Source of the DNA: Desulfobacca sp. | GTDB lineage: Bacteria; Desulfobacterota; Desulfobaccia; Desulfobaccales; Desulfobaccaceae | Assembly (NCBI GenBank): GCA_028695935.1 | Contig: JAQVHY010000020.1 | Span: 1-33,171 of the forward strand | Reading direction: 5' to 3' | DNA length: 33,171 nt | In this document: positions 7,458 through 9,338 of the stretch, piece after piece | Numbering within the stretch: the first letter of the stretch is position 1 | Layout: each line of letters begins with the position of its first letter | Notes under the pieces: model-generated | Databases searched by the model: none | Seen by the model: the letters and a program-made list of their open reading frames with translations, nothing else | Told to the model about the DNA's origin: nothing | Translations under genes and position numbers: made by a program

Positions 7458-7487
7458 TTGACATATTTTCATTTCCTATGCTAACAG
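7458..7487 (+). promoter_or_regulatory. Tentative sigma-70 promoter for the fluoride switch
   Basis: A perfect -35 box TTGACA lies at 7458-7463. The best -10 at acceptable spacing is the poor TAACAG (7482-7487, 18-bp spacer). Transcription would start near 7494, just before the aptamer, which is where a promoter is needed. Confidence 0.35.
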
Positions 7488-7500
7488 AATAATTGTAGTA

Positions 7501-7565
7501 GATGGCGATGAGGTCCGCCCCTAACCGCCTGTGCCTGGAACCGGCCGGCTAATGACTTCTACTGG
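7501..7565 (+). promoter_or_regulatory. Fluoride riboswitch aptamer (crcB motif)
   Basis: The RNA from 7501 has the arrangement of the fluoride aptamer. GGCGATGAGG (7504-7513) is followed by TCCGCCC (7514-7520), a variable hairpin, then GGCTAATGACTTCTACTG (7547-7564). Pairings visible are the pseudoknot GGCG (7504-7507) with CGCC (7516-7519); P1 GAGGT (7510-7514) with ACTTC (7555-7559), one G-U wobble; and a hairpin GCC 7527-7529/GGC 7547-7549 with an inner GCC 7533-7535/GGC 7543-7545. Order and conserved blocks resemble the Thermotoga petrophila aptamer as I remember it. It lies 50 bp upstream of an antiporter gene, a known class of fluoride-switch target. Confidence 0.88.
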
Positions 7566-7601
7566 AAAGATGGTCCTAATTCTGGTAGAAGTTTTTTTTT
7601 T
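7555..7601 (+). terminator. Riboswitch-controlled intrinsic terminator
   Basis: ACTTCTAC (7555-7562) pairs perfectly with GTAGAAGT (7585-7592), followed at once by a run of ten T (7592-7601). The 5' arm contains the same bases that form the 3' side of aptamer helix P1. Fluoride-bound aptamer and terminator are therefore mutually exclusive, which predicts a transcriptional ON switch. The antiporter RBS GAGGAG follows immediately. Confidence 0.85.
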
Positions 7602-7616
7602 GAGGAGAAAACACGC

Positions 7617-9083
7617 ATGGCTTTCAGTCTCGCCGTAATCATCGTCTTAGGGTTGGTCGCCGATTATCTGTTCCGCAAGATCAAGTTGCCGGGCCTGGTA
7701 GGCATGTTAATTGTGGGCATCCTATCCGGCCCTTATGTCTTCAATCTGCTTGACCCGGCCATGATGGCGGTGTCGGCTGACTTTCGCAAACTGGCCCTGA
7801 TTGTTATTTTGTTGCGAGCCGGTTTTGAACTACGCCGCGACACCCTGCATCGCACCGCCCGTCCGGCCCTCCTTATGTCCTCGGTCCCGGCCCTGTTCGA
7901 GATTGCCGGGGTGGTCATATTAGCTCCAACTTTATTAGACCTGACTTGGTTAGAAGCGGCCATGCTGGGGTCCATTCTGGGCGCGGTGTCGCCGGCGGTG
8001 GTGGTGCCCTTGATGATTAATTTCATGGAGCGCGGCAAGGGGGACAAAAAAGGCATTCCCACCCTGGTTCTAGCGGCCTCTTCCATTGATGATGTCTTTG
8101 TGATCGTAATTTTTACCATTCTGCTGGGCATGTATGGCGGTCAGCAGATCAACCTGGCCTGGCAATTGGGCAGCATTCCGATCTCCATTGTGCTGGGGAT
8201 CGTCGTTGGCCTGATTCCCGGCTATATCTTATATAAACTCTTTCTCAGATACGAATTGGCACCTCCCCGCAAGACCATTATGGTCATGGGCGTGGCTATA
8301 GTCCTGACCTGGATTGAGGATTTGGCCCATCGTTTTCTGCCTATCGCCAGTCTCCTGGGGGTCATGGCCATCGGCTTCATCATCCTGGAAAAAGAAGAGG
8401 CCATGGCTCATATTATCTCCCAGAAACTCAAAAAACTTTGGGTGTTCGCCGAGCTGCTGCTGTTTGTGCTGGTCGGGGCCCAGGTCAACATCCAGGTCGC
8501 CTGGGACGCGGGGCTGGCGGGGCTGGCCGTAATTGCCTTTGGCCTGGTCTGGCGCTCAGTCGGGACTTATCTATCGGTAATGGGGGCTGGCCTTAATTGG
8601 AAAGAAAAATTATTTTGCGTGGTGTCCTATATTCCCAAGGCTACGGTACAGGCGGCGATCGGGGCCATTCCCCTGGAGTCGGGGGTAGCCGGAGGCGAAG
8701 TAATTCTGGCAGTAGCGGTGCTGTCCATCCTGGTCACCGCGCCCATCGGGGCCATCGGCATTATGTTGATGGGAGAGCCGATCCTGGAGGTGGAAGAGAA
8801 ATCAATCTATCGCTTCAAACCGCTGCGAGAAATGCTCCAATTGCCTCGGGTGGGCCAACGGGTTCGAAACAAAAGGTATGGTACGGTCTGGAAGATCATC
8901 GAAGAAAAAGAGATCTGGCTCGAGGAACAGACTGGAGAAGGCCCCCAATTGATTCCGGCTATTTACCTGCGCTTCTGGAAACCCCGGGAAGGACAGCGCC
9001 TGGGCACCGGGAGAACCATAAGCCATAATTATACCGCGACCGGAACATCTTTTCATGATTACTGGGAAATCGTGCCCGATTAA
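7617..9083 (+). CDS. Cation/proton antiporter of the KefB/CPA type, fluoride-regulated
   Basis: Polytopic inner-membrane antiporter, 488 residues, with about 12 hydrophobic segments up to about residue 390. SPAVVVP (125-131) and the acidic pair in AASSIDDVFVIV (D158, D159) match the ion-binding core of CPA antiporters. A hydrophilic C-terminal region of about 95 residues (from about 394, SIYRFKPLREM) has alternating strand-like sequence (GQRVRNKRYGTVWKIIEEKE) and looks cytoplasmic; I do not recognise it. The upstream fluoride riboswitch implies expression when cytoplasmic fluoride rises, as for antiporters reported in such regulons. Whether it exports fluoride itself or restores pH or ion balance cannot be read from sequence. 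The RBS GAGGAG precedes the ATG. Confidence 0.88.
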   Translation: MAFSLAVIIVLGLVADYLFRKIKLPGLVGMLIVGILSGPYVFNLLDPAMMAVSADFRKLALIVILLRAGFELRRDTLHRTARPALLMSSVPALFEIAGVVILAPTLLDLTWLEAAMLGSILGAVSPAVVVPLMINFMERGKGDKKGIPTLVLAASSIDDVFVIVIFTILLGMYGGQQINLAWQLGSIPISIVLGIVVGLIPGYILYKLFLRYELAPPRKTIMVMGVAIVLTWIEDLAHRFLPIASLLGVMAIGFIILEKEEAMAHIISQKLKKLWVFAELLLFVLVGAQVNIQVAWDAGLAGLAVIAFGLVWRSVGTYLSVMGAGLNWKEKLFCVVSYIPKATVQAAIGAIPLESGVAGGEVILAVAVLSILVTAPIGAIGIMLMGEPILEVEEKSIYRFKPLREMLQLPRVGQRVRNKRYGTVWKIIEEKEIWLEEQTGEGPQLIPAIYLRFWKPREGQRLGTGRTISHNYTATGTSFHDYWEIVPD

Positions 9084-9158: not shown

Positions 9159-9338
9159 ATGGCTTTATACGTCCATTGTGCCTGTGAGCAGTGCTATCCG
9201 CATCCTAACTGCGCCATTGTCGAAGACATGAATTCCTTGCCGGCGGATTGTATCTTGACCCAGGAAGAATATGATCAGCTCCCGGAGGCAGAGAAAAAAC
9301 TGTGGCAGCCGATATGCGAGGCGGCCTGCAAGCTTTAG
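9159..9338 (+). CDS. Small cysteine-rich protein, unknown function
   Basis: A 59-residue gene that begins MALYVHCACEQCYPHPNC and ends ICEAACKL. Support comes from a strong RBS AAAAGGAGG (9142-9150), a good promoter just upstream, and a terminator downstream. The seven cysteines are at 7, 9, 12, 18, 31, 53 and 57, with histidines at 6 and 15. The N-terminal C-x-C-x2-C-x5-C and C-terminal C-x3-C suggest metal binding or disulfide chemistry. There is no signal peptide or membrane segment, so it is probably cytoplasmic. It follows the fluoride-regulated antiporter by 75 bp and could also be read from that transcript. I do not recognise the family. Confidence 0.75.
   Translation: MALYVHCACEQCYPHPNCAIVEDMNSLPADCILTQEEYDQLPEAEKKLWQPICEAACKL

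Follow-up and report, generated by a model that had tools for sequence, protein, structure and literature searches.

Fluoride riboswitch and overlapping terminator upstream of an NHA2-like antiporter in Desulfobacca, and a C-terminal domain that recurs behind other fluoride riboswitches

The gene of a CPA-type antiporter in Desulfobacca sp. stands behind an RNA that resembles a fluoride riboswitch, and the antiporter ends in a domain of its own; the questions were what the RNA would control and what this domain might have to do with fluoride. The locus lies in a window of 33,171 nucleotides (the whole stretch of DNA that was analysed) and belongs to a draft genome of 201 contigs. The elements upstream of the gene are:

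7458-7487, plus strand: promoter-like site, TTGACA (7458-7463), 18 nt, TGC-TAACAG (7482-7487) with a weak -10 (by eye)
7495-7568, plus strand: fluoride riboswitch aptamer, RF01734 (Rfam, 49.3 bits, E 6.2e-11)
7504-7507 / 7516-7519, plus strand: aptamer hairpin stem, GGCG/CGCC (Rfam alignment, covariation)
7510-7515 / 7554-7559, plus strand: loop-to-3'-tail pseudoknot (covariation; 99% of cells paired in 49 relatives)
7527-7530 / 7546-7549 (7527-7549), plus strand: second hairpin stem, final pair imperfect (Rfam alignment)
7554-7601, plus strand: intrinsic terminator, stem 7554-7569 / 7576-7593, tract of ten T at 7592-7601 (folding energy, overlap in relatives)
7602-7607, plus strand: ribosome-binding site GAGGAG, 9 nt before the ATG (sequence)

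Fluoride aptamer and overlapping terminator

A crcB/fluoride aptamer had been proposed here in an initial annotation made from the letters alone, and the covariance model RF01734 (fluoride/crcB riboswitch) matched the site over model positions 1-64 of 64 (cut-off 34 bits); this was the sole gathering-level Rfam match in the whole window. Both of the proposed helices were found at their predicted coordinates. Their labels were swapped relative to the Rfam structure line, in which GGCG/CGCC (labelled a pseudoknot before) is a nested hairpin stem and the loop-to-3'-tail helix (labelled P1) is the pseudoknot; the swap is a matter of convention and does not affect the topology of the aptamer. The long-range helix GAGGU (7510-7514) / ACUUC (7555-7559) is extended by a sixth pair, C7515-G7554. 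Covariation was assessed in 49 aligned Desulfobacterota fluoride riboswitches from the same and related genomes. The ten pairs of both helices were paired in 98.6% of the cells, double-sided changes occurred at 6 of them, and 35 cells were changed on both sides versus 9.8 in shuffles; when the partners were slid by 1-3 columns, pairing fell to 35-58%. Judged by its sequence, the element is a real, full-length fluoride aptamer. The site at 7458-7487 is a putative promoter, and TTGACA and TGC-TA(A/T)CA likewise precede the riboswitch of a relative of the same genus (G110).

The 5' arm of the terminator had been suggested to reuse the 3' strand of the loop-to-tail helix. This was borne out by folding of 7553-7602, which gave -16.1 kcal/mol (z -3.95, equalled by 0/200 shuffles). 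The strand common to aptamer and terminator is 7554-7562, with the entire pseudoknot 3' strand inside the terminator 5' arm, so that the two structures exclude each other. The same overlap was present in 40/49 relatives; shuffled tails gave it in 3.3 on average, and shifted positions in 2-7. A generic terminator scan of the window did not list the terminator at 7554-7593. Terminator-overlap ON logic has been published for this RNA class (Weinberg 2010, PMC2864571). Fluoride, together with Mg2+, would lock the loop-to-tail helix and occupy the terminator 5' arm, upon which transcription would read through; the antiporter gene would be kept off until cytoplasmic fluoride rises, which is the response that we infer for this organism. 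A decayed riboswitch, or one binding another ligand, could be raised as a general caution, the ligand of the RNA being predicted here from sequence, but the full-length 49-bit match, the intactness of every aptamer helix, the terminator overlap retained in G110 and the fluoride-type regulon in related islands make either case highly improbable.

In a subset of the riboswitches the first stem is directly followed by an additional hairpin of ~17 nt, and the second stem is very short (e.g. L006:3629-3707 on the minus strand, L129:2522-2601 and L136:7772-7849); several of these precede a second antiporter operon.

The antiporter and its C-terminal domain

Downstream of the riboswitch the following features were identified:

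7617-9083, plus strand: NHA2-like CPA2 Na+/H+ antiporter, 488 aa (PF00999, PDB SLC9B2/NHA2, motifs)
8811-9080, plus strand: C-terminal SH3-like barrel domain (predicted), ~91 residues (48% identity to L006:3907-4188)
9159-9338, plus strand: cysteine-rich ORF, 59 aa, 3' of the antiporter (conservation in closest relatives)

The antiporter matched PF00999 with an E of 1.9e-45. Among solved structures, mammalian SLC9B2/NHA2 comes closest (E 2.4e-42, 384 residues aligned), followed by NapA-like proteins. Among 67 relatives D158 and D159 are nearly invariant and K341, the TM10 lysine in the motif PKATVQAAIG, is invariant; the DD motif and the lysine align with the cation site of NHA2/NapA. Because SLC9B2/NHA2 is closest and the paired aspartates and the lysine are kept, the protein is most aptly classed as an NHA2-like CPA2 Na+/H+ antiporter with predicted exchange activity. 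The NCBIfam K+/H+ antiporter model PRK05326 (NhaP2/CvrA) scored 56.9 bits against an equivalog cut-off of 309 bits, and that name was rejected. Taken together, the Rfam match, the covariation, the terminator overlap and the likeness to NHA2 give the reading of an ON switch upstream of a CPA antiporter good support at the sequence level.

The fluoride-linked role that had been assigned to the antiporter is likewise supported; it is expected rather than surprising, since Na+/H+ antiporters are the next commonest class linked to fluoride riboswitches after the exporters (PMC11139923). Acidification by HF has been linked to antiporter upregulation (PMC11139923). The NHA2-like antiporter would most likely expel the protons brought in by HF, and this is the direction of transport that we infer. 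It could instead export fluoride itself (F-/H+ or Na+-coupled), as CLC-F does, and not handle pH; control by a fluoride riboswitch agrees with such a role, and the genome of G110 has no RF01734 match besides the one before its antiporter. The conserved DD motif and TM10 lysine, aligned with the cation site of NHA2/NapA, and the separate encoding of dedicated exporters (CrcB) in related islands argue against it, and we regard the antiporter as unlikely to be a fluoride exporter. The 59-aa cysteine-rich ORF behind the antiporter is possibly co-transcribed with it; it is kept at 97% in L011 (Desulfobacca sp. 4484_104) and at 85% in L108/L142, and in this clade only.

The C-terminal region, which the initial annotation had mentioned in passing as unrecognised, proved to be the more interesting part. 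The domain starts at about residue 398 and matched no family in Pfam or NCBIfam. No recurring family emerged when 106 domain members were compared with Pfam/NCBIfam, the best matches being isolated and weak (one member matched Veg weakly), and among PDB sequences the 106-row profile found nothing below E 0.6. The AF2 model of a stand-alone homologue (pLDDT 93.6, pTM 0.80) has a helix and five strands, and the domain is predicted to be an SH3-like barrel. Comparison of folds returned small SH3-like barrels with Z <= 6.0 and many superfamilies tied; Foldseek found no match at E 0.001. A function was not adopted from the fold matches, in which CarD, Tudor, KOW, CAP-Gly and EF-P were tied at Z 5-6. 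In the model of the full antiporter (mean pLDDT 77.8) a low-confidence linker (394-398) separates the domain from the membrane part that precedes it. Other CPA proteins have cytosolic C-terminal domains. By analogy the barrel is presumably cytosolic as well, and it would most likely be a regulatory or docking module on proteins of the regulon.

Linkage of the domain and a dynamin-like GTPase to fluoride riboswitches

The genome contains five RF01734 sites. Clear copies of the domain number just two, and each lies behind a fluoride riboswitch: the antiporter fusion and, on contig C98, a stand-alone protein of 94 aa that is 48% identical to the antiporter domain and whose gene lies 51 nt behind the riboswitch. 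The domain was found in 43/395 Desulfobacterota genomes, as small proteins or antiporter fusions. In these 43 genomes a same-strand riboswitch was present <=3.5 kb upstream of 26/31 fused and 21/31 stand-alone copies (47/62 in all); the chance expectation, estimated from the riboswitch density seen (about one per 1.8 Mb), is roughly 0.1%. The fused copies are mostly 1.24-1.45 kb downstream of the riboswitch, which corresponds to a riboswitch immediately upstream of the antiporter gene. Stand-alone copies mostly lie ~51 nt downstream, or ~1.9 kb downstream and then behind a GTPase gene.

In a second sample of named genomes, chosen by similarity, riboswitches accompanied 27/58 fused and 11/16 stand-alone copies. 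The model R1, built on 49 sites, has just four base pairs and is likely to be less sensitive than Rfam; 16 of its negative loci were rechecked with Rfam and gave no gathering-level match. Before four fusions without a riboswitch (L028, L047, L024 and L109) no sub-threshold site was found. Since the second sample gives lower figures and the rechecked negatives stay negative in Rfam, the link between domain and riboswitch is strong but lineage-dependent. The domain also persists without a fluoride riboswitch, as follows from the 27/58 figure, from 5/31 fusions lacking the riboswitch in the evenly drawn sample (43 genomes), and from L011, where an antiporter 93% identical to the present one has the domain and the aptamer is missing. 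In L011 (2430-2486) the T tract and the ribosome site are kept before the ATG and other sequence abuts the T tract; the aptamer may really have been deleted, or its absence may come from an assembly join. Consistent with a tie between domain and riboswitch, in G006 the antiporter core is intact and the domain is interrupted by a stop codon and shortened, the sole such case among the sampled genomes; RF01734 was not detected anywhere in that genome.

The domain could instead be a lineage-specific antiporter tail with no fluoride-specific role, linked to the riboswitch through shared ancestry and gene clustering. This would account for the half of the similarity-chosen fusions that have no detectable riboswitch and for the domain being retained in L011. 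Against this, the stand-alone copies are also found behind fluoride riboswitches, directly or via the GTPase gene, and form one clade (32/32 in the tree, support 0.95) apart from the fused copies, whose identity to the reference stand-alone copy is 33-47% in most cases. Two long-separated lineages have therefore kept the riboswitch link, and we consider a tail of this kind rather unlikely, while giving it appreciable weight. The shared domain is probably part of fluoride coping in these bacteria, as its occurrence as a separate protein under a fluoride switch suggests. The stand-alone protein was absent from the plasmid collection that was searched. Ahead of the gene for a second antiporter, one distantly like KefC, a 105-aa protein is encoded (L006:3249-3566, minus strand); it has a single putative membrane helix at the N-terminus and seems to include a degenerate form of the barrel's second half (linked to the L130 fusion by BLAST, E 1e-9).

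In many cases the stand-alone copy comes after a gene for a dynamin-like GTPase. Homologues of this GTPase were collected at E 1e-60 from the 395 Desulfobacterota genomes; in 39/50 cases the gene stands directly behind a fluoride riboswitch, on the same strand and with its start 46-371 nt after it. One of these 39 is in the present genome (L007:288-2030, contig C190), and the GTPase is the commonest first gene in the mapped islands. The islands in related genomes have head-to-head riboswitch pairs and carry genes for CrcB, DUF190-CBS, enolase, formate-THF ligase (FTHFS), H+-PPase and phosphoglycerate-mutase-like proteins, for a second antiporter and complex-I-like subunits, and for what we take, from reading its sequence, to be UspA. 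In the gene maps of related genomes, copies of the domain adjoin the CrcB, enolase, H+-PPase, FTHFS and UspA genes. Genome G278 has eleven RF01734 sites, and one fluoride island in it (L130, G278:C58) holds seven riboswitches within 20 kb. At L140:5463-7360 an antiporter and a protein with a DisA-type diadenylate cyclase domain stand behind a fluoride riboswitch; a fluoride-c-di-AMP link is possible there.

Overall reading and comparison with known systems

A fluoride ON switch, a proton-expelling antiporter and a barrel that serves as a module of the fluoride regulon, and that is also encoded on its own downstream of further fluoride riboswitches in this genome and its relatives, together make an explanation of the locus that we hold with good confidence. 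More tentatively, and with the scales slightly against it, the barrel could be a dedicated fluoride-response module, both free and antiporter-fused, which with the riboswitch-controlled dynamin-like GTPase would form an unrecognised arm of fluoride resistance in Desulfobacterota. If this is true, fluoride resistance in this phylum extends beyond export and enzyme replacement. What gives the observations their value is an unnamed, family-less domain that accompanies fluoride riboswitches along two lineages separated for long, together with a clade of dynamin-like GTPases for which the same holds in 39/50 cases; riboswitch control offers a direct functional clue for proteins that sequence alone leaves blank. 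A part for membrane maintenance by dynamin-like proteins in fluoride tolerance, and regulation of antiporters by a shared adaptor, can now be tested.

Compared with the RF01734 class, there is no essential difference: the full aptamer, the pseudoknot, the overlapping intrinsic terminator and the ON logic are all common to this locus. The predicted fold of the domain is like that of the CarD, Spt5 KOW, EF-P N-domain and UvrD Tudor barrels (Z 5-6, too low for membership); unlike SH3/Tudor/CarD/KOW-like barrels it has an extra N-terminal helix, and no sequence relation to them was found. The GTPase shares the Dynamin_N domain (PF00350, E 4e-29) with bacterial dynamin-like proteins and differs from them in its control by a fluoride riboswitch, which is not reported for them in the literature searched; that literature (the 2012 Science gene list not included) contained nothing joining fluoride riboswitches and dynamin. 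With the Na+/H+ antiporters controlled by fluoride riboswitches (Baker 2012, as summarized in PMC11139923) the present protein has the regulation and the broad class in common, and within the literature searched, Baker 2012 itself excepted, no counterpart of the fused domain is described for them. It shares the TM core, the DD motif and the PKATVQAAIG lysine with SLC9B2/NHA2 and NapA (PDB 7p1i, 7b4l, 4czb) and, unlike these, has a C-terminal barrel of ~90 residues outside the aligned part as well as riboswitch control. The pair of switch and antiporter is ordinary, one more instance of a known arrangement; the new parts are the shared domain and the riboswitch-linked dynamin-like GTPase.
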